From Solimonas sp. SE-A11 (lineage in GTDB: Bacteria > Pseudomonadota > Gammaproteobacteria > Nevskiales > Nevskiaceae): DNA of 64,000 nucleotides. Under the pieces are notes generated by a model. It was not told the DNA's origin, did no database searches, and saw nothing but the letters and a program-made list of their open reading frames with translations. Positions within the stretch are counted from its first letter, which is position 1. The number at the start of each line of letters is the position of its first letter. The DNA is taken from positions 1-64,000 of the forward strand of contig NZ_JAUASX010000012.1 in the NCBI RefSeq assembly GCF_030345715.1, given 5' to 3'. The position numbers were made by a program, and so were the translations under genes. This document shows, piece by piece, positions 12,487 to 27,796 of this stretch.

Positions 12487-12681
12487 TTTCGGCCGGGCCA
12501 GCGCATAGGTAGCGGATATGTCTCAGCAATAATCCAGGCTTCAAGGACATGCGGCCGATTGCCTGGAGTGGGCTCCGGGACCTGACTCCGTCTTTACCCT
12601 TGGGCCGCTGACCAGCGGGGACGTGCAACCGCATGAAAATCATTGCGGAACGCCGTAGCGGGACTTAGACTCATAGGCGTC

Positions 12682-13044
12682 ATGAAAATGGGCCGGACAT
12701 GGTTGAGCGTGCTGCTGGGGCTGGTGCTCCTGCTGCAGGGCTATGCCGTGTCTGCGGCGCCCCGGGCAAACCTCATCAAGGCACTCGACGCCGACATGGC
12801 CATGCAGATGGACATGCCTTGCCATGGGCAGAAGGCCGATGCCGAGAAAGCCGGCAAGCCTTCCTGCTGCAACGCCGACTGCCCGGATATGACCACCTGC
12901 GCCCTGGGGCACATCGCCTCGGCGGTGAGCCTGACGCTGGAACCTCCTCGCGGCGGCATCGCTGAGCCCGATCCGCTTGCAGTGCGTGAAATTGCGCGCA
13001 CGTCGACATCCCTGTTGCGACCTCCCATCCTCTCCCTCGGCTGA
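12682..13044 (+). CDS. Small secreted Cys/Met protein, CopL-like, heading the cus operon
   Basis: The 120-residue product has a signal peptide (WLSVLLGLVLLLQGYAVSA) and a metal-ligand-rich middle, MAMQMDMPCHGQ followed by SCCNADCPDMTTC. It ends in LLRPPILSLG. This arrangement, an N-terminal signal, Met/His/Cys patch and RPP-type end, resembles CopL-like proteins that precede copper resistance genes. The ATG at 12682 fits the signal peptide; the reading frame is open from 12643. The gene is 71 bp upstream of the outer-membrane factor gene. It may bind periplasmic copper or act as a leader. Confidence 0.6.
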   Translation: MKMGRTWLSVLLGLVLLLQGYAVSAAPRANLIKALDADMAMQMDMPCHGQKADAEKAGKPSCCNADCPDMTTCALGHIASAVSLTLEPPRGGIAEPDPLAVREIARTSTSLLRPPILSLG

Positions 13045-13115
13045 TGCATAGCCGCAACTCGGGCGCCGCCTGAGTTGTTCCGGGCCGCTGCGCGGCCCTA
13101 TCGTGGAGAGAGTGC

Positions 13116-14429
13116 ATGTATCCCTTGTATCGCCGCGCCCCGGCGCGGTACCGATGGCCGCCGGCCGTCGCCGCGGTCCTGTTGGCGGCGGCTGTCCTGC
13201 CGTCCCTGGCCGAAGCCGACAGCGCCGCGCTGGCGCTCGGTGAAGTCGAGCGCCTGGCGGTGTCCGGCCAGCCCATCCTGATCGGCCTGGAAGCCCAGGC
13301 ACGCGCCGCGCGAGAGACCGCGGTGGCCACGCGCCAGCTGCCGGACCCGCAATTCGTGACGGGCATCCAGGACGTTCCCGTCAACACGTCCGATGCCTGG
13401 TCCCTGCGGCGCGATTCCGACACGCAGATCCAGGCCGGCCTGATGCAGGAGTTTCCGCGCGCGGAGAAGCGCCGCCTGAGAGGCGAGTTGCACGAACGCG
13501 AAGCGGGGCGCCTGCAGGCCGAGCATCACCTGGCCTGGCGCACGGTCCGGCGGGACGCGGCCCTGGCCTGGCTGCAGGTCTGGAAGTACGACCAGACCCT
13601 GCGCCTGACGCGGGAGAGCTTGCGGGAGGCCGAGACCCAGATGCAGGTCGTCGAAATTGCGCTGCGCACCGGTAGCGCCACGCAAGCCGAGTTCCTGACC
13701 GCGCGCCAGGAAGTGGACCGGCTGAAGGACGCTGCAGCCGCCGCCGAACAGAGCATGGCGCACGCCCGCAATGGGCTGTCCCGCTGGATCGGTGACGAAG
13801 CGTTCCGCCCCGTCGCCGCGGATCTGCCTGAGCTGCCGGCATTGCCGTCCTTGGACGTGGTGCTGGAGCGTGTGCGACAGCACCCGCACCTGGCCGGTGC
13901 CGCGGCGCAGGTCGCCATGGCTCAGACCAGTGCCGACTTGGCTTTCGCCGCCTACAAGCCGGACTGGCGCGTCGAAGTCGGCTACGGATACCGGCCGGAG
14001 TTCTCCGAGATGGCCATGCTGCAGGTCGGCATCGACCTGCCGGTCTTCACCCGCAACCGCCAGGACCGCGCCGTTGCTGCGGCTCATGCTCAGCAGGAGG
14101 CCGCGGCCGCGGCGGTCGATGATGCCGCTCGGCAACTGCTCTCGGAAGCCCGTCTCAATCACCAGGATTGGCAACGCCTGATCGCGCGCCTGAAGGCCTA
14201 CGACGAGGGCCTGCTGCCGCAGAGCAGTAGTCGCATCACCGCTTCGCTTGCGGGCTGGCGGTCGGGACGCGGGCTGCTGCGCGACGTGATCGACGCTCGC
14301 CGCGGCGCCCTGGAACTGCAGATGGCCCGCCTGGACCTGCAGTCCGACCTCACCATGCACACCATCCAACTCAGCTATCTCGGTGCCTTCGAGGACGCCT
14401 CGGGTACCGGAGACCCCAACCATGAATAA
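13116..14429 (+). CDS. cusC: CusC-type outer-membrane factor (TolC family)
   Basis: The 437-residue TolC-family protein forms the outer-membrane and periplasmic duct of a tripartite heavy-metal pump. It has a signal peptide ending near SLAEA, long coiled-coil stretches rich in Ala, Gln, Glu and Arg (about 80-230 and 300-400) and two outer-membrane-efflux repeats. There is no lipobox cysteine. Its stop overlaps the start of the adaptor gene by eight bases. The order C-B-A is that of cus/czc operons. Confidence 0.88.
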   Translation: MYPLYRRAPARYRWPPAVAAVLLAAAVLPSLAEADSAALALGEVERLAVSGQPILIGLEAQARAARETAVATRQLPDPQFVTGIQDVPVNTSDAWSLRRDSDTQIQAGLMQEFPRAEKRRLRGELHEREAGRLQAEHHLAWRTVRRDAALAWLQVWKYDQTLRLTRESLREAETQMQVVEIALRTGSATQAEFLTARQEVDRLKDAAAAAEQSMAHARNGLSRWIGDEAFRPVAADLPELPALPSLDVVLERVRQHPHLAGAAAQVAMAQTSADLAFAAYKPDWRVEVGYGYRPEFSEMAMLQVGIDLPVFTRNRQDRAVAAAHAQQEAAAAAVDDAARQLLSEARLNHQDWQRLIARLKAYDEGLLPQSSSRITASLAGWRSGRGLLRDVIDARRGALELQMARLDLQSDLTMHTIQLSYLGAFEDASGTGDPNHE

Positions 14430-15804
14430 GAAAATCTTGATTGCTTTGACCCTCGTGCTCGCGGCAGCCGCAGGCTTCGGCTGGTGGTACGCACAGAAGG
14501 GAGAAGGGCACCGCCACGAGCTGGTGAAGAAGGTGGATGCCCAGGGCCAGGCGTATTGGACCTGTCCGATGCATCCGCAGGTACGCCAGGATCATCCGGG
14601 CAACTGTCCGATCTGCGGCATGAAGCTGGTGAAGCGGGAGGACCAGCCCCCTGCCGCGCCTGCCAAGTCCTCTGCGGCCGAGCGCCGGGTGCTGTACTGG
14701 TACGACCCCATGAAGCCGGAGGTGCATTTCGACAAGCCCGGCAAGTCGCCCTTCATGGACATGGACCTGATGCCGAAGTATGCCGAGGAGTCGGCCGCTT
14801 CGAGCGACGAAGGCATGAATATCGAGATCGATCCGCGCATGGCCCAGAACCTGGGCATGCGCACCGCGCCGGTCGAGCGCGGCACCTTCTGGCAGCGTAT
14901 TGATGCCGTCGGCAGCGTCGCGGTCGACGAGCGTCGCATCGTGTCCTTGGAAGCCCGCGCCGCCGGCTGGGTCGAGCGCCTGGAAGTCCGGGCGGCCGGC
15001 GATACCGTGCGCCGCGGCCAGGTCGTGGCCGGCGTCTATGCCCCCGATCTGCTGGCGGCTCAGGAGGAACTGGCCCTGGCGCGCAAACTGGGCGACCCGA
15101 CGTTGATCGATGCCGCCAGGACCCGGCTCAATCTGCTGGGTGTCGGAGGCGGTTCGGGTGGTCCGCAGCGTCAGGTCGGCATCGTCGCGCCGCAAGGCGG
15201 CGTCGTCACCGAGTTGATGGTTCGCGAAGGGGGGCAGGTGACCCCGGGAATGCCCCTGATGAAGCTCGCCGACCTGTCGAGCATCTGGATCCTGGTCGAG
15301 GTGCCCGAGACGCAGGCCGGCTGGGTCGCCGTAGGCAAGGCCGCGGAGGCGCGCCTGAAGAGCCAGCCGGAGCGGGTATTCGAAGGCACTGTCGACTACG
15401 TGTACCCGATGCTCGACACCCAGACCCGGACGCTGAAAGTGCGCCTGGTATTCGACAATCCCGACCTGGCGCTCAAGCCCGGCATGTTCGCCGACGTGAC
15501 CCTCTTCGGCGGGGCGAAGCGCGACGTCGTCATGGTCCCGAGCGAGGCGGTCATCCGTACCGGGGATCGCAGTGTAGTGCTGGTGGCCGAGGCTGCCGGC
15601 CGCTACCGGCCGGTTCACGTCGAGCTGGGCCCCGAGCGGCAGGACCAGACGGTGATCCTGTCGGGGCTTTCCGAAGGGCAGCAGGTGGTCGTCTCCGGCC
15701 AGTTCCTGCTGGACTCCGAGGCCAGCCTGCGCGGGGCTTACCAGCGCATGGGCGGTCCGGCAAACATGGGTAAGGCTGCAATGGCACCGGAGGCGGCACC
15801 GTGA
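14422..15804 (+). CDS. cusB: CusB-type membrane fusion protein with heavy-metal-binding domain
   Basis: The 460-residue periplasmic adaptor links the CusA pump to CusC. After an N-terminal membrane anchor, residues about 45-72 form a heavy-metal-binding zinc-ribbon-like domain ([10 protein letters not shown], then CPICGMKL). A second degenerate copy reads WYDPMKPEV and MDMDLMPKY, the pattern found in CusB proteins. Barrel-sandwich and beta-barrel parts follow ([30 protein letters not shown]). The ATG at 14422 overlaps the cusC stop, and a 4-bp overlap joins it to cusA. The Met/Cys motifs fit delivery of Cu(I)/Ag(I). Confidence 0.9.
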
Positions 15805-18800
15805 TCGCCCGCCTGATCCATTGGTCGGTCCACAACCGCTTCCTGGTGTTGCTGGCGACGGTGTTGGTAATGGCCTGGGGCCTGTACTCGGCGGCGCGCA
15901 CGCCGCTCGATGCGATTCCCGACCTGTCCGACACGCAGGTGATCGTCCGCACTGTCTATCCTGGCCAGGCACCGCAGGTCGTGGAGGACCAGGTCACCTA
16001 TCCGCTGACGACGACCCTGCTATCGGTGCCGCACGCCAAGACGGTCCGCGGTTACTCGCTGTTCGGCGAGTCCTTCGTCTATGTACTGTTCGAGGACGGC
16101 GTCGATCTCTACTGGGCGCGTTCTCGCGTGCTGGAGTACCTGTCGCAGGTCCAGGGCCGGCTGCCGGCAACGGCGCGTGCGGCCCTGGGCCCTGACGCGA
16201 CCGGCGTCGGCTGGATTTACGAGTACGCCCTGGTCGATCGCACCGGCAAGAACGACATCAGCCAGCTGCGCGCGCTGCAGGATTGGTTTCTCAAGTACGA
16301 ACTCAAGACGGTCCCGAACGTGGCCGAGGTCGCCACCATCGGCGGCTTCAACCGCCAGTACCAGATCGTGCTCGATCCGGACCGGCTGCGTGCCTATCGC
16401 TTGCCGCTGGAAACCGTCGTCGCCGCGGTGCAGGACGCCAATGGCGAATCGGGTGGCTCGGTGCTGGAACTGGCCGAAACCGAGTACATGGTTCGCGCGC
16501 GGGGCTACCTCAAGTCGCTCGACGGCTTTCGCGAGACTCCCGTGGGCCTCGGAGACAACGGCACGCCGATCCTGCTGCGCGATATCGCGACCGTGCAACT
16601 GGGCCCGGAGACCCGGCGCGGCATCGCCGAACTGGACGGCGAGGGAGAGGTCGTCGGCGGAGTGATCGTGTTGCGCTCAGGCGAGAACGCCCAGTCGACG
16701 ATTGAAGCCGTCAAGGAGAAGCTCGAAACCCTGAAGGCCAGCCTGCCTCAGGGTGTCGAAGTCGTGGAGACCTACGATCGTTCGGCGCTGATCGACCGGG
16801 CCGTGGAAAACCTCTCGCACAAGCTGCTGGAGGAGTTCCTGGTGGTGGCGCTCGTCTGCGCCCTGTTCCTCTGGCACCTGCGCTCGGCGCTGGTGGCCAT
16901 CATCACCCTGCCGATCGGCATCCTGGCGGCATTCATCGTCATGCACGCCCAGGGCATCAACGCCAACATCATGTCGCTGGGCGGCATCGCCATCGCGGTC
17001 GGCGCGATGGTCGATGCGGCGGTGGTCATGATCGAGAACGCCCACAAGAAGCTGGAGCAGTGGCGACACGCGCATGAGGGCCAGGACCCGGCTGGCGCGG
17101 AGCGGCTGAAACTGATGGCGGACGCCGCCGGCGAAGTGGGACCGGCGCTGTTCTTCTCGCTGTTGATCATCACCCTGTCCTTCGTGCCGGTCTTCACGCT
17201 GGAGGCCCAGGAAGGCCGGCTGTTTGCGCCCCTGGCCTACACCAAGACCTACGCGATGGCCGCCGCGGCTGCCCTGTCGGTCACGCTGATCCCCGTCCTG
17301 ATGGTCGCCTTCATCCGCGGGCGGATCGTCGACGAGACCGCCAACCCCCTGAACCGTGCGCTGATCGCCGTGTACCGCCCGGTGATCGACAAGGTGCTGG
17401 CGCATCCCCGTGCGACGCTGGTAATCGCTCTGGTCGCCGCCCTGGCGACGCTGTGGCCGGCCACGCGTCTCGGTAGCGAATTCATGCCACCGCTCGACGA
17501 GGGCGACCTGCTGTACATGCCGACGGCGTTGCCGGGGCTGGCGGTCGGCAAGGCCGCCGAGGTGCTGCAGCAGACCGACCGCATCCTGAAGACCTTTCCC
17601 GAGGTGCAGCGGGTGTTCGGCAAGATCGGGCGCGCCGAGTCGGCGACCGACCCCGCGCCGCTGGAGATGGTGGAGACCACAGTCAGGCTCAAACCGCACT
17701 CGGAATGGCGGGAGGGCATGACCACCGAGAAGCTGATCGAGGAGATGGACGCGGCACTGAAGATTCCGGGCATGGGCAATGTCTGGGTCCAGCCGATTCG
17801 CAACCGCATCGACATGCTCGCGACCGGCATCAAGTCGCCGGTGGGCATCAAGATCGCGGGCCCCGATCTGGCGGTGATCGAGCGGGTGGGTGCGCAGATC
17901 GAGGCCGTGGTGAAGCAGGTCCCCGGCACCGTCTCGGCCTTCTCCGAGCGGGTTTCGGGTGGGCGCTACATCGAGGTCGTTCCCGATCGCCTCGCGGCGG
18001 CTCGCTACGGCATGAGCATCGCCGATGTGCAACGCATCGTTTCCCTGGCCATCGGCGGCGAGAACATCGGCGAGACGGTCGAGGGCCTGCAGCGCTTTCC
18101 GATCAACCTGCGTTATCCGCGGGCGCTGCGGGATTCGGTTCAGGACCTGCGGGACCTGCCGTTGGTGACGATGCGCGGCGAGACGATCACTCTGGGCAGC
18201 CTCGCGACCGTGCAGATCACCGATGGTCCGCCCATGATCAAGTCGGAGAACGCCCGCCCGAACGGCTGGATCTACGTCGACATCCGTGGCCGCGACCTCG
18301 GCGGCTATGTCGCCGAGGCTCGCAAGACCGTGGCCGAGCAGGTGCAACTGCCGGCCGGTTACTCGGTCGCCTGGTCGGGCCAGTTCGAATATCTCGAACG
18401 GGCCACCAAGCGCCTGCAGGTCGTCGTGCCGTTTACGTTGGCGATCATCTTCCTGCTGCTGTACCTGACCTTCCGCAGCGCCGCCTCCGCGGCACTGATC
18501 ATGGCGACGTTACCCTTCGCCCTGGTCGGTGGGTTCTGGCTGATCTACCTGCTGGGCCATCATCTGTCGGTCGCCTCCGGTGTCGGCTTCATCGCCCTGG
18601 CCGGCGTATCCGCCGAGTTCGGCGTGGTGATGCTGATCTACCTCGACAACGCCATTGGGGAGCGGCAGGAGCGCGGTCGGATGCGGACCCAGGCCGACCT
18701 GCGCGACGCTCTGATCGAGGGGGCCGTGCTGCGGGTGCGTCCGAAGGCCATGACCGTGGCGGTCATCATCGCCGGCCTGCTGCCTTTGTTCATCGGCGCG

Positions 18801-18944
18801 GGAACCGGCAGCGAGGTCATGCAGCGCATCGCGGCACCGATGGTGGGGGGCATGATCACCGCGCCCCTCTTGTCCATGATCGTGCTGCCGGCGGCGTATC
18901 TGCTGCTCCGTGGACGTCGGCTATCGAAGGAAGAGAGTCCGTGA
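15801..18944 (+). CDS. cusA: CusA-type Cu(I)/Ag(I) RND efflux pump
   Basis: The 1047-residue inner-membrane proton antiporter is of the HME-RND class. The fourth transmembrane helix reads [23 protein letters not shown] in overlapping parts ([23 protein letters not shown]), the signature of the monovalent Cu/Ag group rather than the DFG...DGAV form of zinc pumps. Twelve membrane helices and two large periplasmic loops fit the length. The GTG at 15801 overlaps the cusB stop. It exports periplasmic or cytoplasmic Cu(I)/Ag(I) through CusC. Confidence 0.92.
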
Positions 18945-19012
18945 CAGGCCTTCGCCGGAACGGGACAGCAAGCACCCGGTCAAAGTCCTGTAGGCCGAGC
19001 AGGAGTAACCGC

Positions 19013-19390
19013 GTGCGCCGAGGAGTCTGGGCCGTTCTGATCGTCATGGCGACGCTGCTGCCGTGGCGGGTCGCGCTGGCCTGTGCCCATGACGCTGCAT
19101 CCATGCAGCAGCGTTGCTGTTGCACCGACGCCATGGCGCCGTGCCCGCAGGTCAGCAGCGGCGTCGGCAAATGCTGCAAGCAGGTCGTCGCCCTGCAGGC
19201 GCAGGTAAAGGACGCCGAAGCCGACGCGCTTCCGACCTTCTCCGGCGACAAGACGCCCGCTCCACCACCGTTGTCGCATCTTGCGCCCGACTGGATTGGG
19301 CATCCACCGCCATTGACGGCTCCCGGCACGTTTCCGCCGCGCTTCGCCGGAACCCGCACCTACCTGGTTACGGCCCGCCTGCGACTGTAG
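19013..19390 (+). CDS. Small secreted Cys-rich protein downstream of cusA
   Basis: The 125-residue product has a signal peptide (VWAVLIVMATLLPWRVALA), then a Cys-rich mature start: CAHDAASMQQRCCCTDAM, a PC and GKCCKQV. A Pro-rich C-terminal half follows. The GTG at 19013 is chosen because AGGAG lies 7 bp upstream; the frame is open far into cusA, but that part is antisense to nothing and simply overlaps cusA. A cluster of seven cysteines suggests Cu(I) binding in the periplasm. It belongs to the same transcript as cusCBA. I do not recognise a named family. Confidence 0.65.
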   Translation: MRRGVWAVLIVMATLLPWRVALACAHDAASMQQRCCCTDAMAPCPQVSSGVGKCCKQVVALQAQVKDAEADALPTFSGDKTPAPPPLSHLAPDWIGHPPPLTAPGTFPPRFAGTRTYLVTARLRL

Positions 19391-19492
19391 GAGCGGCGAG
19401 GGCCCGCGTGCCAGCGGGCCTGGATTCACCTCGACGACAAAGACCGGCATGCCCGTCATGCCTTGCATTCCTGTTGCCCGAAGAGGTCATCC

Positions 19493-19777
19493 ATGAACAC
19501 TACAGTCATCCCGATCCGCCGGCTCGGCCTGGGCCTGGTCGCGATCATCAGCCTGGTCCAGGCGGCGCAAGCCGCGCCGACCTACGGCCCCCGCAATACC
19601 CTCCAGGTCAGTGCGCCAGCGACGCCTTGCACGGCCCCTGCGGTTACGCGGCAGCTCTGGGACGGCGCCAACAAGCGCCGTGTCGAGGTCGCTTTCCTGG
19701 AACCCTGCGACATCGCGCCGCAACCCCAACCGACGAGATGGATCGGCCCTCGGGGCACGATCCCTGTCGCTCCGTAA
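19493..19777 (+). CDS. Small secreted protein of unknown function
   Basis: The 94-residue product has a signal peptide (IRRLGLGLVAIISLVQAAQA) and a short mature part with two cysteines (APATPCTAP and FLEPCDI) that could form a disulfide. Aromatic and proline residues are spread through it. The ATG at 19493 has AGAGG upstream and places the signal correctly. It lies 23 bp before the triple-repeat protein gene in the same direction, at the end of the cus transcript. No family was recognised. Confidence 0.55.
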   Translation: MNTTVIPIRRLGLGLVAIISLVQAAQAAPTYGPRNTLQVSAPATPCTAPAVTRQLWDGANKRRVEVAFLEPCDIAPQPQPTRWIGPRGTIPVAP

Positions 19778-19799
19778 GTTTCCTCTCAAGGAGATCATC

Positions 19800-20180
19800 A
19801 TGAACATCCATTTGTTAATTGTTCGCTTCACTCGCGCCATGGCCGCCGCTGCGTTGCTGGGGGCGGCCGCCACCGGTGCCTGGGCACATCCGGCTCAGGA
19901 ACCCCCGGCACCCGGAAGCTTCGCGGCCATCATGAGCGTCAAGGACCCGGGCAACTACGGTCCGAAAGCCGTCAGTGATGCCCCGATATCACCGCGCGGC
20001 GAGGGGCTCCCGGGATCGTTCGAGGCGGTGATGTCCGTCAAGGACCCCGCGCATTGGGGGCCAAAGGCCGGCGTCAACCATGACGGTTGCCCGACACAGT
20101 CCGCGTCACCGGGTTCCTACGAAGCCGTCATGGCGGTGAAGGATCCGGGGCGCTTCGGCCCTGAGCCCTGTCGGCGTTAA
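19800..20180 (+). CDS. Secreted protein with three tandem VKDP repeats
   Basis: The 126-residue product has a signal peptide ending near GAWAHPA, followed by three copies of a repeat of about 20 residues: PGSFAAIMSVKDPGNYGPKA, PGSFEAVMSVKDPAHWGPKA and PGSYEAVMAVKDPGRFGPEP. Linkers of about 15 residues separate them. The invariant core is PGS-(F/Y)-x-A-(I/V)-M-x-VKDP-x3-GP. Each repeat has one methionine and an aromatic residue, a possible Cu(I) or membrane contact. AAGGAG precedes the ATG at 19800, and a strong terminator follows 20 bp after the stop. I know of no described family for this repeat. Confidence 0.65.
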   Translation: MNIHLLIVRFTRAMAAAALLGAAATGAWAHPAQEPPAPGSFAAIMSVKDPGNYGPKAVSDAPISPRGEGLPGSFEAVMSVKDPAHWGPKAGVNHDGCPTQSASPGSYEAVMAVKDPGRFGPEPCRR

Positions 20181-20199
20181 GGAGGTCATTGGTAAACAA

Positions 20200-20230
20200 G
20201 CGGGGCGCCACAGGGGCGCCCCGCTTTCTT
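20200..20230 (+). terminator. Rho-independent terminator of the cus operon
   Basis: A perfect 10-bp GC stem (GCGGGGCGCC at 20200-20209, GGCGCCCCGC at 20215-20224) with a 5-base loop is followed by TTTCTT. It closes the 12682-20180 transcript. Confidence 0.85.
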
Positions 20231-20432
20231 CCGGGCCCGCCGACGTTGCTGAGCCACGGGTTGCAGTTTGCATGGAAAGGCAGCCTCAGGCCTGCAAAGC
20301 TCACGCACTACGAATGGACGGCTATCCAAGGTTTTCAGCCATAAGACGCTGACGCAGAAAGCCCTTCCAGCGATGGCACGCCAACTGCCCCCATATGGCT
20401 GACGAACAACCGTAAAAGTGGGAGTGACCGCC

Positions 20433-20792
20433 ATGCCCGATGTCGAAGCGCCTTCAATCCAACTCTGTATCGAGGCCTCTCTCGAATGCCACCGCCTGTG
20501 TTCCGAGGCCGCGTTGCGACCGCAATCGGCCGGCATCCGGATCGGCTCAGACCCTGCCGCGACCTTGCTCAACTGTGCGGAACTCAGCATGGTGAACGCG
20601 CACTTTCTGATGGCCAGGGCACCTGAGCAGCACGCGGTAGTCCAGGCCTGCGCGACAGTGAGCCGCACCTCTGCCGAGGCGCTTCAAGACCTGACGGGTT
20701 TGCAGGACTGTGCGCAGATTTGCCAGGTACTGGCCGAGAGCTGCCTGCAACTACTTCGTCTCCCGGCCCCGCCGAGGAGGGCCGTGGCATGA
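20433..20792 (+). CDS. Reduced Cys-rich four-helix protein, Csp/DUF326-like
   Basis: The 119-residue product has cysteines spaced in helices (CIEASLECHRLC; later LLNC, ACATV, DCAQICQVLAESC), eight in all. The pattern is that of copper storage proteins (Csp), which hold many Cu(I) ions inside a four-helix bundle, but it has fewer than half the cysteines of the true Csp at 24238. Several helix positions carry Ser, Ala or Met instead. There is no signal peptide. The ATG at 20433 has GGAG 8 bp upstream. Its stop overlaps the start of a 66-residue membrane protein. Confidence 0.6.
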   Translation: MPDVEAPSIQLCIEASLECHRLCSEAALRPQSAGIRIGSDPAATLLNCAELSMVNAHFLMARAPEQHAVVQACATVSRTSAEALQDLTGLQDCAQICQVLAESCLQLLRLPAPPRRAVA

Positions 20793-20989
20793 GCCCCACC
20801 TTCGCCGTGCGCTGTGCGCGGCTCTTGTGGGTTGCCGCATTCGTAGCGCTGGTCGGCGCCTGGATCGCGGGTTTGTTCGGTCCGCTGCTGGGACTGAGTT
20901 CTGCGCATCTTTTCGCGGACGCCACGGTCCTCGCTCTGCTGTCGCTGGGCATGTTTGCCGACGCGTGGTGGCATCGCCAGGGAACGTAG
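20789..20989 (+). CDS. Small membrane protein coupled to the Csp-like gene
   Basis: The 66-residue product has two hydrophobic segments, CARLLWVAAFVALVGAWIAG and ATVLALLSLGMFADAWW, joined by a short loop, and a basic His-containing end (HRQGT). The ATG overlaps the upstream stop by four bases (ATGA), so expression is probably coupled. It is too short to be a transporter alone and may tether or assist the Csp-like protein. No family was recognised. Confidence 0.55.
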   Translation: MSPTFAVRCARLLWVAAFVALVGAWIAGLFGPLLGLSSAHLFADATVLALLSLGMFADAWWHRQGT

Positions 20990-21068
20990 CTTGGACGCAC
21001 CCCCGGCTCACATTCAAAAGATCGTTTGCTACGACCCGACCGGGTCATCTCACCCACGGAGAATTATC

Positions 21069-21494
21069 ATGACAAAGTCAAATTTTTTCACCAGAAAGAC
21101 CGCGGTACTCGCGCTTGGCCTGGTGTGTGCGCTCGTCGGCGCGCCCGCGAATGCGGATCAGTCTTCGATGTTCAAAGCCATCGACTACGGCAACGGCCAA
21201 TACTTGGCCGCAGCCGAAGCCATTAAGACCGGGGGGACAAAAGGCGGCAAAGGCATGAAGGACATGGGCGGCATGAAGCATATGGAAGGTATGTCCATGA
21301 CCGGTGACGCGGACTATGACTTCGCCGCCAATATGCGCAAGCATCACCAGATGGCCGTGGAAATGTCCGAAGCCGAGCTCAAGAAGGGCAAGAATCCGGA
21401 GATGCTGGAGATGGCCAAGAACATCATCGCCGCGCAGAAAAAGGAAATCGCCGAACTGGATCGCTGGCTCGCGGCGCACAAGGGGCCGAAATAG
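21069..21494 (+). CDS. Secreted DUF305-family protein
   Basis: The 141-residue product has a signal peptide (KTAVLALGLVCALVGAPANA). A Met/Gly-rich patch, KGMKDMGGMKHMEGMSM at about 60-76, comes next, then the DUF305 helix-pair region (ANMRKHHQMAVEMSEAEL and LEMAKNIIAAQKKEIAEL). DUF305 proteins are ferritin-like helical bundles often found in metal resistance islands. The patch and the paired His/Met residues fit periplasmic copper binding. GGAG precedes the ATG at 21069; the longer open frame back to 20955 is not needed. Confidence 0.8.
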   Translation: MTKSNFFTRKTAVLALGLVCALVGAPANADQSSMFKAIDYGNGQYLAAAEAIKTGGTKGGKGMKDMGGMKHMEGMSMTGDADYDFAANMRKHHQMAVEMSEAELKKGKNPEMLEMAKNIIAAQKKEIAELDRWLAAHKGPK

Positions 21495-21568
21495 CAGTTG
21501 ACGACGGTCACCCCGCCGGTCTGGACGGCATATGGCACCCGGGCCGACTTGAACCCGAGGACCAATGC

Positions 21569-22681
21569 ATGACGCCGCGTGGCCAGCGCTACGGTCAAAT
21601 ATTGCAAAGCCGTTTCCGGCCGCATCCTCTGTTGCCGGGCGCGCATCTGCAAACCATCGCGACGCTGTTGCGGCCCGCACCCAAGCTCGTCCTTCGCCGC
21701 GAGCGGCTGGAATTGACTGATGGAGACTTCGTGGATCTGGGCTGGAGCGGGGACCACAACGCCAGTGGTCCCTTGGCGGTGCTGGTACATGGCCTTGCCG
21801 GCGGCTTCGAGTCCAAGTATCTGCTGGGTACTGCTTGCCAACTGATAGCGAAAGGCTGGCGCACGGTGATCTTGCAACTGCGCGGCGCGGGTCCAGAGCC
21901 GAACCGCTTGCACCGCTGCTACAACCAGGGTGATACCGAAGACCTGCGCTATTTCTGGCATCTGTTGCGTCAGCGAGAACCCAAGGCGTTCATCGCTTCG
22001 CTGGGCTGGTCTCTGGGCGGTAACGTCACCCTCAAGGCGCTGGCGGAGGAGGGCCAGTTGGCGCCGATCAATATCGCCGCAGCGGCCTCCGTGCCCTTCA
22101 TTATCCGACCATGTGCAGAGCGCCTGCGCACCGGCTTCTCTTGCGTTTACCAGAAGCGTTTGCTCGACGCGGTGAAAATCGCTTTGCGGCGCAAGCATAG
22201 CCAGGTTCCGCTATCGCCTCTGGTCAATCTGTCCGCCGCACTAGCGGCGCAGGATTTCATCGAGTACGACGAGGCCTGCACCGCGCCACTGGCGGGTTAC
22301 CGCAGCGCGGAGGACTACTATGCGAACGCCTCCTGCGGTCAATTTTTAAAGGATATTCAGCGCTCGACCCTCGTGGTACACGCGCTGGATGATCCCTTCA
22401 TGACGGCCGACATCGTTCCCAATGTGGAAGCCTTGTCGCCCCATGTGACACTGGAATTGGCGCACAACGGCGGGCATGTCGGCTTTGTCAGTGCCGGCAC
22501 GCTTGGCCGACCCTACTGCTGGCTCGGACGCAGACTGGCGGAATTTTTGCCCGCTGGTTTTGAACGTCAGGCTGCCACGCAGCCTCGCACCTGGGATGTG
22601 AAGGGCTGGACGGAGGCGGCTTCAATCGTCTGTGGACCTATAGCGAGGATACCCGCGCACTTGAGGCCTCGGTGGGCCTGA
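21569..22681 (+). CDS. YheT-family alpha/beta hydrolase
   Basis: The 370-residue protein opens with the YheT signature (HPLLPGAHLQTI) and has the oxyanion segment LVHGLAGG, the nucleophile elbow GWSLGGN and late acid/His segments (ALDDPF and NGGHVGF). Members are hydrolases of poorly defined, probably lipid, substrates. The gene has no metal-specific feature and may be a housekeeping passenger between copper modules. The ATG at 21569 matches the family start. Confidence 0.85.
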   Translation: MTPRGQRYGQILQSRFRPHPLLPGAHLQTIATLLRPAPKLVLRRERLELTDGDFVDLGWSGDHNASGPLAVLVHGLAGGFESKYLLGTACQLIAKGWRTVILQLRGAGPEPNRLHRCYNQGDTEDLRYFWHLLRQREPKAFIASLGWSLGGNVTLKALAEEGQLAPINIAAAASVPFIIRPCAERLRTGFSCVYQKRLLDAVKIALRRKHSQVPLSPLVNLSAALAAQDFIEYDEACTAPLAGYRSAEDYYANASCGQFLKDIQRSTLVVHALDDPFMTADIVPNVEALSPHVTLELAHNGGHVGFVSAGTLGRPYCWLGRRLAEFLPAGFERQAATQPRTWDVKGWTEAASIVCGPIARIPAHLRPRWA

Positions 22682-22732
22682 GGCTCCGCTAGGAAATTCG
22701 CCGCAAGCCCGTACTGGTGCCCGGACCCGAGG

Positions 22733-24028
22733 TTAACGCAACGGGGCGGCGAGGCTGAGCATGCCCTTGAGCCCGGTGCCGAACCGCGCCAAGGCAGTGC
22801 GGTGTTCGCGCAGGGCGCCGTAGGGCAGGTAGTGGAGCTTCAGGTCGGAAACCCGGCTGAAGGCCGGCCGACCCAGTTGCGCACGCACCTGCTCCTGCCG
22901 ATCGTCGGGGGCGACGAGGAAATAATTGCCGGACGCCGGTTCGTCGAACGAGAGGGCGAGATCCAGCATGCGCACGATGCCTGAATAGATGCTGGTCGTG
23001 TGCTCGACCTCAAAGGCTGCGGCAATCCGCTCCTGGTCGGGGTCGATCCAGAGCACATCGATCAGCCGGATCGATTCAGCACTGCCGGTCGCGGCGATCC
23101 TGGGGGGCAAAGTGTCGACGCAGCCATCGGACAGGCGTCCACCGCCGTAGGGCCTGGATCGGTCATTGGCGGCGATCCAGACCAGATAGCCCAGCGCCTG
23201 ACCCAGGTCCCTTAGCCAGCCCTGCACCTCGGTATGAGTGAGATCACTCTCGGCCGCCGTGCGCAGCGTGTTGCTGAGTCGGGCCGACTGCTCGCGCACC
23301 AGGGCGAGGTCCGCCCGCCATTGGGCGATCAGCTCCTCTTCGCCACCGATCGCCGGCGCCGTATAGCGGCCGGAACCGATATCGAACAGCAGCCCGCCGA
23401 TGGCGCCGAGGTCATTGGAGAGCCACTGGCGATGCCGCTGGTTGAATTCGAGGATGCCCAGGCGCATGGCCAGGTATTCCTTCCAGCTGCCGAGTTTGGC
23501 CTGTGCTCCGGTCAGCAGGTTGTAGCCGCGCACGATCGCGGTGTTGAAGGGCGGTATCAGGGTGGGATGCAGGAAGTACAGCAGGTTCGCAGCCGCAGGG
23601 CCGAGACCCTTGATGCGCTGCGCGTCCAGTTGCTGGATCGCAGCCAGCACCGGTTCTTCAGTCTGGCAGCAGGCGCAGCTATGCAGGAAGCGGCCGAAAG
23701 CGCGCTGATTGTCGAGGTTCTCGTAGATATCCGGGATGCGTAGTTTCGGCTTCCAGAGAAAGGCGTGATCCGCGCCCCTGAAGATCTGGCGCTGCTCTGC
23801 GATGCTGCTGACCACCGTCTCCAGCGATGATCCCCGATAGGCGTTGCCGAAGCGCCCGGCGTCGATTTCCTCGACGACTGCGGCGAGGCCTCGTCGGATG
23901 GAGCGGAAGTTCTTGAGTCGCTCCTCCCACAGGAACCAGCTCCGGTAGGTTGCGGCGGGGTCTTCACGCCAGACCTCCAGCATTTGCCGGGTCGCGGCAG
24001 CGATGTCTTCGGGTTCAGGGAGGTTCAT
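22733..24028 (-). CDS. Nuclease-like protein with HhH-type and EVEH segments
   Basis: The 431-residue product has no recognised name. In the N-terminal half, IKGLGPAAANLLYFLHP followed by PPFNTAIVRGYN resembles a helix-hairpin-helix DNA-binding segment as in base-excision glycosylases. Near the C-terminus, IDVLWID and FEVEHTTSIYSG followed by YFLVAPD resemble the core of a restriction-endonuclease-like fold with an E-x-E in place of D/E-x-K. A CACC pair lies near residue 115. The start at 24028 (MNLPEPED) is chosen over an upstream ATG at 24091; neither has a good ribosome binding site. A DNA repair or defence role is inference. Confidence 0.6.
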   Translation of the reverse strand: MNLPEPEDIAAATRQMLEVWREDPAATYRSWFLWEERLKNFRSIRRGLAAVVEEIDAGRFGNAYRGSSLETVVSSIAEQRQIFRGADHAFLWKPKLRIPDIYENLDNQRAFGRFLHSCACCQTEEPVLAAIQQLDAQRIKGLGPAAANLLYFLHPTLIPPFNTAIVRGYNLLTGAQAKLGSWKEYLAMRLGILEFNQRHRQWLSNDLGAIGGLLFDIGSGRYTAPAIGGEEELIAQWRADLALVREQSARLSNTLRTAAESDLTHTEVQGWLRDLGQALGYLVWIAANDRSRPYGGGRLSDGCVDTLPPRIAATGSAESIRLIDVLWIDPDQERIAAAFEVEHTTSIYSGIVRMLDLALSFDEPASGNYFLVAPDDRQEQVRAQLGRPAFSRVSDLKLHYLPYGALREHRTALARFGTGLKGMLSLAAPLR

Positions 24029-24237
24029 TGAGGAGCGCGTTGTTGGGAGAGAGCCTGCAGTCTGCAAGTGCCTGCGGCAGAACCTCTCCATATTGCAGGG
24101 AACGGCGTCGGATCATGGTCCAGAGATTGCGGGCCAAGCACCTGAAGCGCTTGTCCTTCTGGAGCAGGCATGGCTGCTGCACGCGAAAGGCGGCGGGCCT
24201 TGTCGGTCCGTAGCCCACTTTTTACGGAGACAATGAC

Positions 24238-24615
24238 ATGGCCCACGATCAATTCCGAGAATGCATTGAGGCTTGCCAGGCCTGCGCCGACGCCTGCGAC
24301 CATTGCGCCACGGCCTGCCTGCAGGAGCCCGACGTCGGGGAGATGGCCCGCTGCATCGCGCTCGACATGGACTGCGCGCAGGTCTGCCGCTTTGCCGCTT
24401 CGGTGATGGCGCGCGGCAGTGAGTTCGCTGGCGCGATTTGCCAGATCTGCGCGGAGATTTGCGAGGCCTGCGGCGAGGAATGCGAACGCCATCCGCCTGA
24501 CCACTGCCAGCAGTGCGCCGAGGCCTGTCGGCGCTGCGCGGAGGCCTGCCGCCAGATGGCGAGCAAGGCTCCGGCACGCGGTACCGGGCAGGGCACGGCC
24601 GCCGCCGCCCACTAG
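24238..24615 (+). CDS. csp: Cytosolic copper storage protein (Csp family)
   Basis: The 125-residue four-helix bundle has about 19 cysteines in CxxC and CxxxC spacing (CIEACQACADACDHCATAC at the N-terminus; CQICAEICEACGEEC; CQQCAEACRRCAEAC at the end). Csp proteins line the bundle interior with Cys to store many Cu(I) ions. There is no signal peptide, so it belongs to the cytosolic Csp3-like group. The message reads toward the MerR gene ending at 24723. A start at 24238 keeps the first CxxxC. Confidence 0.88.
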   Translation: MAHDQFRECIEACQACADACDHCATACLQEPDVGEMARCIALDMDCAQVCRFAASVMARGSEFAGAICQICAEICEACGEECERHPPDHCQQCAEACRRCAEACRQMASKAPARGTGQGTAAAAH

Positions 24616-24722
24616 TCGATGCAGGCTCGCGAGAGGGTCCGGCACGGCAGTGACGTTTGCCGGGCCCTTCGTCGGGAACCAGAGGGTGTGGACCGCTGAT
24701 GCCGGCGTTGGCATGGCGGCGT

Positions 24723-25223
24723 TCATCGGACCTTGGCCTGGTAGCTGTCAGGCCCCAGCAGCGCGGCGATGATGGAGGCGCGACCCGCGGCGCGGCCCTT
24801 TGCCTTGCCAGTGTGCTGCCGCAAGCGGTCCCGGATGGCGGTGAGATCCTGAATGCGGCGCTCGATCTCGCGAACCCTCGGTTCGATACCGGATTCCAAC
24901 TTGCCGCTGAGGTCACCCTGATGCTCAAGGCGCAGGATGTCGGCAATTTCGTCCAGGTTGAAGCCCAGGGCGCGCACGCGCCGGATGAACCGCAATCGAT
25001 CGACGTCTTCCGCGCCGAAGTTGCGATATCCCGATGTCGCACGACGCGCCTTGGGCAAAAGCCCCAGGCGTTCGTAAAACCGGATCGTGTCGACCGTGGT
25101 GTCCGTCAGCTTGGCGAGACGGCCGATGGTGACGCGCGGCAGCGCCTGAGCATCCTCGGAAGTCGGCAGCGCAGAGAGTCCACCCGATCGTCGCGGCGGG
25201 GTGCCTCGTCGGTGCGTGCTCAT
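24723..25223 (-). CDS. MerR-family regulator lacking cysteine
   Basis: The 166-residue protein has a normal MerR DNA-binding half (TIGRLAKLTDTTVDTIRFYERLGLL, residues about 32-56, in parts) and a long dimer helix. It contains no cysteine at all, so it cannot sense Cu(I) with the CueR-type C-x7-C pair. The N-terminal 30 residues are an extra Arg/Ser/Pro-rich extension. It is the last gene of the minus-strand copper operon and overlaps the DUF411 gene by four bases. It may respond to a non-metal or redox signal, or use His/Asp ligands. Confidence 0.8.
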   Translation of the reverse strand: MSTHRRGTPPRRSGGLSALPTSEDAQALPRVTIGRLAKLTDTTVDTIRFYERLGLLPKARRATSGYRNFGAEDVDRLRFIRRVRALGFNLDEIADILRLEHQGDLSGKLESGIEPRVREIERRIQDLTAIRDRLRQHTGKAKGRAAGRASIIAALLGPDSYQAKVR

Positions 25224-25741
25224 GGCGCCGCCGGTCCGTGTTTAGCAAATACCGCCGGCGGGGCATCATCGCTGAACAGCAGGACCTCGTAGGGGTCGAC
25301 GCGATCCCCTTGCTCCATGCCGGGAGAGCCGATCGGCATGCCCGGCACCGCGAGACCCTTGGCCTTGGGACGCTCGGCCAGCAGCCGTCGGATGTCTTCC
25401 GCGGGCACATGGCCTTCGATGAGGTATCCCCGCACGATGGCCGTATGACAGGACGCCAGGTCGCCGGGCACACCCAGCCGGGTCTTGAGGGGATTCATCG
25501 CGTTTTCATTGCGCACGTCGACCGAGAAGCCAGCGTTCCGAAGGTGCTCGACCCATTTGGAACAGCAGTGGCAGGTGGGGCTTTTGTAGACGACCACGGA
25601 ATCTGCGGCCGCCGCCGCGGGAGGCGTGGATAGCTGCCAGTAGGCCCCGGCAATGAGGAGCAGCGCGGTCAGGCCAGCGGCGAGAGCGACGAGGAGGGGA
25701 CGGCGGTCCCGATGGGCAGTGCGTGGATTCATGCTTGGCAT
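25220..25741 (-). CDS. DUF411 metal-associated protein
   Basis: The 173-residue product has an N-terminal membrane anchor or signal (LLVALAAGLTALLLIAGAYW) and the DUF411 thioredoxin-like core. Its redox or metal site reads SPTCHCCSKWVEHL, with a second segment SCHTAIVRGYLIEGHVPAEDI. DUF411 proteins recur in copper and zinc islands and probably bind Cu on the periplasmic side. A second family member is at 53251. It is ten bases downstream of the outer-membrane protein gene in the operon. Confidence 0.82.
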   Translation of the reverse strand: MPSMNPRTAHRDRRPLLVALAAGLTALLLIAGAYWQLSTPPAAAAADSVVVYKSPTCHCCSKWVEHLRNAGFSVDVRNENAMNPLKTRLGVPGDLASCHTAIVRGYLIEGHVPAEDIRRLLAERPKAKGLAVPGMPIGSPGMEQGDRVDPYEVLLFSDDAPPAVFAKHGPAAP

Positions 25742-25751
25742 CTCATAAGGA

Positions 25752-26804
25752 CTACAGGAATCGCCATTGCCAGTTCAGCCGTCCGAGAAAAGTGGTCTTG
25801 AGCTGCGGTCCATCCAGGTCCTGGTACACCGGCGCGCCGACCTCAAGAAACACACGCTGTTGCTCGGAGCTGGGGCTCTGGCCTGGCCTCAGGTCAAAGC
25901 CGACCAGGAAGTCCAGCCGCTTGCCGCCCTGCAGGGACGGATCCTTGGTCGGCTCGTCCGCAGGATCGAGTTCCGCATCGGCGCCTCGGATGTTCTCGAC
26001 GCGGCGGGCCTCGACGCGAGCCGAGGCATTGGCCACCTCGTTGAGGCGACGGATCAACCACAGGCCCATCCGATAGTCGTTGCCGAGTCGATAGCCGTTG
26101 TCGTTGTCGCCGACACGCAGATTGGGCAGGAACTCCGCGCCCCAGCCCCATTGCGCGGCCTGTCCCAGGTAGGCGACTCCCGGACTCAGGGAAACGGTGC
26201 CGGTGCCCAGCTGCATGGGGTATTCCAGGCGCATGCCGTTCATGCGCTCGTCGATCGAGCCGGTCGGCAGGCTGAGGCCGGCATTGAGCACAACGCGATG
26301 GCGCAGATCGGGCTGCGCATAGACGACGTACTGCGCACGCAGTCCGACATCGCCGATGCCGCTGGTGCGTTCGTTGAATCGCTCGCCGTCGGCGGTGAGA
26401 TGCTCCATCGACTTGACGAGGTAGGGCAGCGTTGCCATCAGCGCCAGATCGTCGGTCGCCGCGTACATCAGCATGCCCATATGCATCTGCATGCTCATCT
26501 TGGTGGGCGCGGCGAAGTAGTTCTGCAGGATTTCACCCTCGCTGATCCGCCCGGTGCCATCAAGGTTTCGGTTCATCCGCTCGTAGCCGTATTCGTAGGC
26601 CGCCATCCATTTGCTGCCATGACCCAGCATGAACGCCGCCGGCTGTAACCCATGGGTCATGGTGGCCATTTGGTCCATGTTCCGTGACGGCACGGGAATG
26701 ACGGGATAGGTCCCGAGCTCCGGTGCGGAACGATCTTGGGCGAGCGCCGGAATGGCGCTGACCAGCAATGCGGTCAGCACAGAAGCCTGCGGGTATGGCT
26801 TCAT
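25752..26804 (-). CDS. Met-rich outer-membrane beta-barrel-like protein
   Basis: The 350-residue product has a signal peptide ending near IPALAQD, then alternating amphipathic strands and a terminal aromatic residue in WQWRFL, consistent with a beta barrel. A Met-rich stretch (TKMSMQMHMGMLMYAAT, near residues 105-121) is typical of copper-linked transport or porin-like proteins. It overlaps the rhodanese-cyclase gene by four bases. The function is unknown; a passive outer-membrane exit or sensor for copper is possible. Confidence 0.7.
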   Translation of the reverse strand: MKPYPQASVLTALLVSAIPALAQDRSAPELGTYPVIPVPSRNMDQMATMTHGLQPAAFMLGHGSKWMAAYEYGYERMNRNLDGTGRISEGEILQNYFAAPTKMSMQMHMGMLMYAATDDLALMATLPYLVKSMEHLTADGERFNERTSGIGDVGLRAQYVVYAQPDLRHRVVLNAGLSLPTGSIDERMNGMRLEYPMQLGTGTVSLSPGVAYLGQAAQWGWGAEFLPNLRVGDNDNGYRLGNDYRMGLWLIRRLNEVANASARVEARRVENIRGADAELDPADEPTKDPSLQGGKRLDFLVGFDLRPGQSPSSEQQRVFLEVGAPVYQDLDGPQLKTTFLGRLNWQWRFL

Positions 26805-27796
26805 GTTTTTCTCCTCTTGGGCGACTGATGAGTCAGATACACCGAGACGGGGGCATCGAAGCCCTTGAGGTGTTGCGGCTCTGCGTGCAGCACCAAGGCA
26901 TCGGCATGTTCTTGGTGGCTAGTACGCGCGTGGTTCATGACCGCTTCGGTTGCGGCAATGCCGCCCGGAGGGGCGAGCTTGAGCAGGCGTGCCGCGGTGT
27001 GCACAGCCGTGCCGATGAAGGAAAGTCCACGGCGTTCGCGGCCGCCAATCCGGCCAATAACCAGCGGACCGAAGTCCAGGGCCATGCGCACCTCGGGGAG
27101 GTCGGGGCGGGTTACGCGGCGTTCGGCGAGCGCATCACGAATGGCGAAGGCCGCGGGTAGGCTCTCCGTGGGACTGGCGAAGTACAGCATGGCACCGTCA
27201 CCTTCGAAGTCATGGACATCGCCGCAGTGGCTTACGGCGATCTCCGTCACGATCTCCATGAAGGCCTGCACCAGGCCGAGTACCTGCTCGGGGGCATGGG
27301 TCGCGAACAGGCGCGTGGAGTCGACCATGTCGACGAACAGCACGGCCAGGTCTCGGCGGGCGGGCAGGGCCAGGCCTCTCAGGAATGCGGCTTCCGCAAT
27401 GAGATCGCCCTGCGGTTCCTCGGCCAGGACCGTCCACCCGGCAATCTGACGCCGGGCTTCGGGGGCGAGCACCGCAGTGACGCCGCCGCCGGCAAGCCAG
27501 GCGGGCCATCCGCCGTCCAGGACCGCGATGTCGCGGTATCCCGCCGCGTCGAGCCAACGTGCGACGCGAGTGCTCGAAGCCTGTCCGTTGCACAGGCAGT
27601 AGACGACGATCGGCGTCGAGCGCGGCAGATCGGGAAGCTGTGGCGGCTGCTCGTCCATATGGATCGGAACCGCATGCGGCAGCGCCAGCGGCTCACGTCG
27701 AAACGCGTCACGGCGCCGGGCATCGAGCAGCAGCGGCGCGGGAGAGTGCCGAAGCCGCTCGCTCAACGCTGCGGGCGTGATGCGGCCGATGCTCAA
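26801..27796 (-). CDS. Rhodanese-class III nucleotide cyclase fusion
   Basis: The 331-residue protein joins a rhodanese-like domain (residues about 5-105) to a class III adenylate/guanylate cyclase domain (about 145-320). The rhodanese loop has Cys69 in [10 protein letters not shown]. The cyclase has the metal aspartates in LFVDMVDST (Asp156) and EGDGAML (Asp200), but the usual substrate Lys is replaced in HDFEGDG and the usual VNxAAR reads VHTAAR. Either nucleotide specificity is changed or activity is reduced. It overlaps copA and the outer-membrane gene by four bases each, so it belongs to the copper operon. A link between sulfur or copper status and a cyclic nucleotide is inference. Confidence 0.85.

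Follow-up and report, generated by a model that had tools for sequence, protein, structure and literature searches.

A triple-repeat secreted protein at the end of a Solimonas cus operon, a possible accessory of tripartite efflux pumps

Small exported proteins encoded in copper operons are usually explained as metal binders. The cus operon of Solimonas sp. SE-A11 (Nevskiales, Nevskiaceae) raises the question of whether this explanation holds for a secreted protein that is encoded behind the pump genes and is built from three copies of a short unit. The gene lies in the window, i.e., the 64,000 nucleotides (positions 1 to 64,000, forward strand, of contig NZ_JAUASX010000012.1) that were analysed as a whole. 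A sequence-only reading of this DNA had described three conserved copies of a 20-residue unit behind a signal peptide, placed the gene at the end of a cus operon, linked it to copper export and recognised no family; it had also proposed a profile search and a structure prediction.

The open reading frame (Table 1) runs from an ATG to a TAA codon, with AAGGAG six bases 5' of the start, and a Sec-type signal peptide is recognisable by eye, in agreement with the secretion that had been proposed. The three copies are likewise real; their length, however, had been overstated, since the described residue pattern itself spells 18 residues, which recur with a period of exactly 33 (33 and 33). Pairwise, the units are identical at 13, 12 and 13 of 18 residues and at 35, 35 and 36 of 54 bases. 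With BLOSUM62, the highest-scoring pair of gapless 18-residue stretches reaches 76, while 200 shuffles of the mature protein gave a mean of 19.5, a standard deviation of 5.4 and a maximum of 47; the triple repeat is thus far from chance. Between copies, 18 or 19 of 54 bases (about a third) but 5 or 6 of 18 residues differ; the duplication is therefore an old one, after which the protein sequence was maintained. Comparison with the orthologues L006 and L007 yielded dN/dS values of 0.11 (window–L006), 0.23 (window–L007) and 0.18 (L006–L007) for the repeats and of 0.19, 0.58 and 0.20, respectively, for linkers and tail. All values are below 1, and the repeats are lower in each of the three pairs, in L006–L007 only just; the units are under purifying, protein-level selection.

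The mature part of 97 residues contains 3 Met, 3 His and 2 Cys. Its sole cysteines, Cys97 and Cys124, are 27 residues apart and flank the third unit, and the chain ends in GPEPCRR. The structure prediction gave a poor AlphaFold model (alignment of three sequences; pLDDT 47.1, pTM 0.20), so that disorder and the short helices at residues 41-44, 74-78, 107-114 and 116-119, besides the signal helix, are suggested at most.

Table 1. Features of the cus operon and of the triple-repeat gene in the window
Feature	Position	Strand	Basis or remark
CopL-like protein, 5' of cusC	12643..13044	+	NF033807, 30.7 bits, below the 40-bit cut-off
CusC-type outer-membrane factor	13116..14429	+	OEP match
CusB-type adaptor	14422..15804	+	HlyD_D23 and heavy-metal-binding domain HMBD; start by eye (scanned from 14416)
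CusA-type heavy-metal RND permease	15801..18944	+	TIGR00914, 1332.2 bits
Cys-rich exported protein ending in TARLRL	19013..19390	+	GTG start by eye
YGPR, secreted protein of 94 aa with GPR motifs TYGPRNTL and RWIGPRGTIP	19493..19777	+	relatives occupy the slot in sister cus operons
Triple-repeat secreted protein, 126 aa	19800..20180	+	ORF translation, repeat analysis, orthologues L006/L007
Signal peptide, residues 1-29, ending in AWA before HPAQ	19800..19886	+	Sec-type, by eye
Unit 1, PGSFAAIMSVKDPGNYGP, residues 38-55	19911..19964	+	repeat analysis
Unit 2, PGSFEAVMSVKDPAHWGP, residues 71-88	20010..20063	+	repeat analysis
Unit 3, PGSYEAVMAVKDPGRFGP, residues 104-121, with Cys97 and Cys124 on either side	20109..20162	+	repeat analysis
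G+C-rich hairpin of 12 pairs, then TTCTTCC	20198..20226	+	folding computation

All genes of Table 1 lie on one strand, in the order CopL-like, cusC, cusB, cusA, Cys-rich, YGPR and triple repeat, which bears out the location that had been read from the sequence. The triple-repeat gene begins 23 bases beyond the YGPR gene and appears to be the last of the operon; the following gene begins 253 bases after it. The stretch 20181-20240 folds with -33.6 kcal/mol (z -3.2), a value reached by 2 of 200 shuffles, and the hairpin contained in it, which a consensus scan did not report, is a probable transcript end.

The operon is part of a large copper island (12643-30156) that comprises, besides the CopL-like and cusCBA genes, those for a CopM-like/DUF305 protein, a MerR regulator, a DUF411 protein and a P-type ATPase, the latter named by eye and by tblastn to relatives. 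The same island encodes a rhodanese domain fused to a nucleotide-cyclase domain. A Cys-rich, DUF326-type protein, presumably copper-storage-like, is encoded at 24238-24615, and the product of 20433-20792, which has fewer cysteines, weakly resembles it (25%, E 1e-5, via L055). Upstream of the YGPR gene, at 19446-19462, lies the palindrome GGCATGCCCGTCATGCC, which may be an operator or an element of the RNA; GGCATGC palindromes like it are also found ahead of the YGPR genes in genomes G041 and G046. The Cys-rich protein at 19013-19390, for which neither Pfam nor NCBIfam gave a match, is a candidate for a new copper sensor of the CutF type. Cys-rich exported proteins with a nearly fixed C-terminus, T-[A/Q]-RLR[L/I], adjoin the slot for YGPR and triple-repeat genes (see below) in L012, L045, L046, L054, L058, L060 and L105.

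Relatives of the triple-repeat protein were found within the order. Orthologues are present in Hydrocarboniphaga effusa AP103 (G008; 83% identity to the window protein) and Solimonas fluminis (G050; 85%), both Nevskiaceae, the latter sharing the genus with the window genome (G000). A search with the single protein matched 13 of 85 genomes of the order at E 0.001, and a profile of 14 members matched 14 of 85 at E 0.01. After curation, the family comprises at least 16 proteins in 13 of the 85 genomes, window included: one each in G000, G008, G014, G016, G020, G023, G029, G030, G037 and G050, and two each in G024, G026 and G059. Left out were antisense or stop-interrupted matches in G000 (C4, minus strand), G026 (C3, plus strand), G016 (C4) and G080, together with matches in G008 (C2; E 0.002), G652 (one stop, E 1e-4) and G042 (E 6e-4, single protein only; TPR-like by eye), as well as three matches in the window's own genome (E 0.06 to 0.11); matches within one reading frame were merged, and a match of the A4 profile in G412 (E 3e-4) was not counted. 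Beyond the order, the profile found only the window among 369 genomes of the class and, among 398 genomes of the phylum, the window plus one stop-containing stretch; since only 10 to 13 or so candidates per genome were scored, absence there weighs less than absence within the order.

No family in Pfam, NCBIfam or the PDB accounts for the window protein, as had been surmised, and the profile search brought up relatives in the order. With a threshold of E 1, neither Pfam nor NCBIfam gave a model for the window protein; in the Pfam search with 14 members, five families each matched a single member at E 0.05 to 0.23, which was regarded as noise. No believable relative was found in the PDB. Two AI-designed TIM barrels were matched by the profile with whole-sequence E values of 4e-6 and 6e-6, no single stretch falling below 1.4, and were rejected as a summed effect of the barrels' own internal repeats; two matches of the single protein (E 0.36 and 0.47) were also rejected. 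Among 72,556 plasmid and 50,697 phage records, the protein had no match, and a weak match of relative L010 to a Rhizobium plasmid (E 0.9) was discarded. Fifteen stretches of viral contigs fit the repeat pattern, none of them a relative by tblastn. Five motif strings occurred in none of the papers searched, a weak result considering that sequences rarely appear in running text. We propose the term PGS-KDP repeat family for proteins of this kind, in which units like PGS[FWY]xA[IVL]M[SA]xK[DSAL]P, usually three, follow a signal peptide.

Across the 16 members, 46 units were compared, each column being left out of the choice of units; the set retains the misplaced first unit of G023 and the second unit of G029, which scores below zero. 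Lys11 is present in 43, Pro13 in 42, Ser3 in 41, Gly2 in 40, Ala6 in 39 and Met8 in 37 of the units, followed by the aromatic residue at position 16 (35), Gly17 and Pro18 (31 each) and Asp12 (27). The strictest positions are not metal ligands, and in the cus-linked copies of G024 and G016 the repeat Met has been lost from two of three units. Unit spacing is 31-39 throughout, except for a spacing of 48 in G016 and the misplaced unit of G023. The mature parts contain two cysteines in 14 members, four in one and none in one, i.e., an even number in all 16, as disulfides would give; the same holds for 11 of 11 YGPR proteins (counted after residue 28 or 26). In G030, the relative (L057, 6156-6380) is a lipoprotein-like protein of 75 residues with a single, Cys-bracketed unit, which may therefore be the minimal form. 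C-termini differ among relatives (CRR, CRRQAGH, CGRK, ATPHN). The relative in G037 (L054, 8164-8580) has divergent units, PGS[NA]EA followed by K[FT]P, with the repeat frame kept and KDP and YGP lost; despite the divergent triple repeat, the CusA encoded in this operon shares 89% identity with the window's.

The members fall into a close group of nine and a second group of seven, whose third unit ends in [NS]ARP; their neighbours were called by frame composition and, where no domain scan was made, named by eye. In the close group, cusC or cusA is no more than 5 kb away for eight members; the ninth, a second copy in G059, is in the same copper cluster but some 11 kb from cusC, beside a MerR gene. 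G008 and G050 share the window's order of cusCBA, Cys-rich, YGPR and triple-repeat genes; in G020, G059 (first copy), G024 (C498) and G016, the triple-repeat gene is directly 5' of cusC, and in G037 the order is Cys-rich, YGPR, divergent triple repeat, cusC, cusB and cusA. In the second group, six have an efflux gene at a distance of about 5 kb or less. Porin and efflux genes follow those of G014, G026 (C37), G029 and G030. The porin of G030 is of type BBP2, and the permease there, the only one of these four loci checked with TIGR00914, scores 831.6 bits for CusA/CzcA; the TolC and adaptor genes of G014 and G026 were named by eye, the adaptor of G029 was found by tblastn (E 1e-8), and a copper ATPase is 3.8 kb away in G026. 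The second-group gene of G024 (C228) follows an HlyD_D23 adaptor, and that of G023 adjoins a gene named by eye as an outer-membrane factor and a permease gene that scores best, though below the cut-off, with the model for the multidrug permease MdtC. The remaining gene, on C3 of G026, has no efflux gene in view and an L,D-transpeptidase nearby. In total, tripartite efflux genes, in one case those of a multidrug pump, are found no farther than about 5 kb from 14 of 16 members (some names by eye); by shared ancestry, these are fewer than 14 independent events. The proposed link to copper export, thus, stands for the close group, but linkage to both metal and multidrug pumps makes the pump type, more than copper, the common denominator.

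What else occupies the place of the triple-repeat gene, here called the slot, was surveyed at 60 near-full-length CusA orthologues of the order (at least 59% identity). The surroundings of 46 loci were read, and the other 14 were judged by genome-wide profile searches. A triple-repeat gene is present at seven loci, a YGPR gene at ten and both at four, so that at least 13 carry either; this is a lower bound, because the slot gene lies on another short contig in G024, G055 and G009 and several neighbourhoods end at contig ends. At 47 of the 60 (minus a few split contigs) neither was seen, which indicates that the pump does not need a slot protein in general. CusF (PF11604) is matched in 14 of 85 genomes, the window genome not being one of them, and lies within 5 kb of 11 of the 60 loci, none of which is among the 13 with a slot protein (hypergeometric P 0.05, a statistic that ignores kinship). 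The bodies of the YGPR proteins (n = 11), which have no Pfam match, contain 0-1 Met, 0-3 His and 0 or 2 Cys. Common to both occupants are export and a G-P-[R/K/H] motif, mostly preceded by a bulky residue, but not metal ligands. Outside the order, a genome from another family of the class (G168) has a YGPR gene between a Cys-rich gene and efflux genes (by eye).

The two occupants meet in G059. There, a stretch that takes in about 138 upstream bases and codons 1-27 of the triple-repeat gene shares 74% identity with the G039/G040 YGPR gene (E 6e-35) and 69% with its G037 counterpart (E 7e-26; both E values scaled to 5 Mb), the homology ending at the signal-peptide junction. The body behind it shares 62% identity with the triple repeat in the window (E 3e-11) and 66% with the one in G020 (E 2e-32, match from codon 16). 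As the start of cusC again matches G039 (63%, 5e-10), the loci are equivalent. Judged by these alignments, the G059 gene is a chimera, in which the mature body would have been changed behind a kept YGPR leader and signal peptide; the comparison sets one locus against YGPR genes from three genomes, of which two hardly differ. In the window, both bodies are encoded side by side. A broader reading, speculative and in our judgement improbable, is that the cus operons of these bacteria keep a cargo slot, in which disordered bodies, of the YGPR type with two motifs or the PGS-KDP type with three, are swapped at the signal-peptide junction behind a retained leader and serve as interchangeable multivalent ligands for the threefold pump; such ligands would form an overlooked class of periplasmic pump accessory, on which the family's other RND systems for metals and multiple drugs would draw as well.

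As to function, we tentatively favour, at somewhat less than even confidence, a periplasmic, largely unstructured and multivalent accessory of the Cus tripartite pump. Exported via its signal peptide, the protein would reside in the periplasm, each unit forming a small helix with a PGS cap, closed by K-[D]-P-x-x-[aromatic]-G-P. The three units would serve as consecutive docking motifs, the last of them possibly closed into a loop by a disulfide, as the cysteine pairing suggests, and would bind a repeated site on the assembled pump, be it CusC, CusB or CusA. Such docking may help to assemble, hold or tune the pump and, in this way, influence copper efflux. Multivalent docking would explain both the conservation of Gly, Ser, Lys and Pro and the ligand-poor alternative body, neither of which metal binding explains well, and a docking motif fits the linkage to metal and multidrug tripartite pumps alike. 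In being a small partner of a tripartite RND pump, the protein would resemble AcrZ; in contrast to this accessory, which is a membrane helix, it is exported, soluble by sequence and repetitive.

The pump accessory is preferred to a metal-binding role, in which the protein would be a sponge or chaperone for Cu(I)/Ag(I) in the periplasm, ligate the metal through the Met of each unit and the Cys pair and hand it on to the Cus pump; we consider this reading rather unlikely, if still a serious one. SilE and PcoE, which bind several Ag+ and fold on binding, are similarly small, exported, encoded with a Cus/Sil-type pump and made of repeated short helical motifs, and their possible disorder is a further likeness. 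Met8 is not far below Lys and Pro in the units, as a metal binder could show and as speaks against an accessory; together with the lack of CusF in the window genome, this is why a SilE- or CusF-like binder retains a share of the probability, and that CusF and a slot protein were seen together at none of the 60 CusA loci points the same way. In passages of PMC5008109, SilE is likewise disordered before binding, but its ten His and ten Met are set in the motifs MxxHxxxxxHxxMxx and HxxMxxxHxxMxx. Our mature sequence has far fewer of both and neither MxxH nor HxxM, and shows instead conserved Lys-x-Pro and paired cysteines. With CusF, a small periplasmic partner of CusCBA, it would share the predicted location; the W-H-MxM copper site given for CusF in an excerpt of PMC10304878 is, however, absent from it, and PF11604 is neither matched by the window protein (E up to 1) nor among the families matched by 14 members. 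Further points against a binder are the cus-linked copies in G024 and G016 that keep Met in one unit of three, the even Cys numbers throughout the family and the YGPR bodies, so poor in ligands that a role common to both occupants is unlikely to be metal binding. Export and the GP motif being shared, and metal ligands not, the accessory is the preferred reading, although two occupants of one slot need not have a common function. Copper binding by the triple-repeat protein is, so far, not supported by its sequence.

Two other readings depart from the finished protein as a partner of copper or pump. A nascent-chain copper sensor of the CutF/CopL/CruR kind, in which translation of the message controls the next gene, would suit a small protein of a copper operon with a Sec signal (by eye), with CopL-like and Cys-rich genes nearby and, in the five loci G020, G059 (first copy), G024 (C498), G016 and G037, a gene directly before cusC, where CutF-like genes are often found according to an excerpt of PMC9973294. 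It has neither CxxxC nor a clustered Cys/His motif, nor does the family have a fixed, stalling-like C-terminal motif, and its repeats are selected at the protein level. In the window, G050 and G008, the gene comes after cusA, apparently last of the operon rather than upstream of a controlled gene; with the strong hairpin behind it and nothing in the operon following, such a role is disfavoured in the window and, overall, quite improbable, while it is possible for the relatives that precede cusC. Slightly more credit, yet still little, is given to another cell-envelope role, e.g., that of a surface or peptidoglycan-bound repeat protein or a short-peptide precursor that merely shares copper control. 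The lipobox recognised by eye in the second-group members of G014, G029 and G030 and the C3 gene of G026 beside the L,D-transpeptidase would fit it, but tripartite efflux genes stand beside 14 of the 16 members.

Taken together, this is a real, selected and unnamed repeat family, ordinary in its setting and unusual in its make-up and in its exchange with a different body. Although poor in ligands, it sits where a metal binder would be expected; its distribution follows tripartite pumps and not copper alone, and at one locus it appears to have replaced a ligand-poor protein behind the same signal peptide. If the triple-repeat protein is a copper binder after all, it would bind through an unfamiliar site. 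If it is a pump-docking factor, RND pumps would have overlooked soluble, repeat-built periplasmic partners, and the protein would offer a handle on pump assembly.
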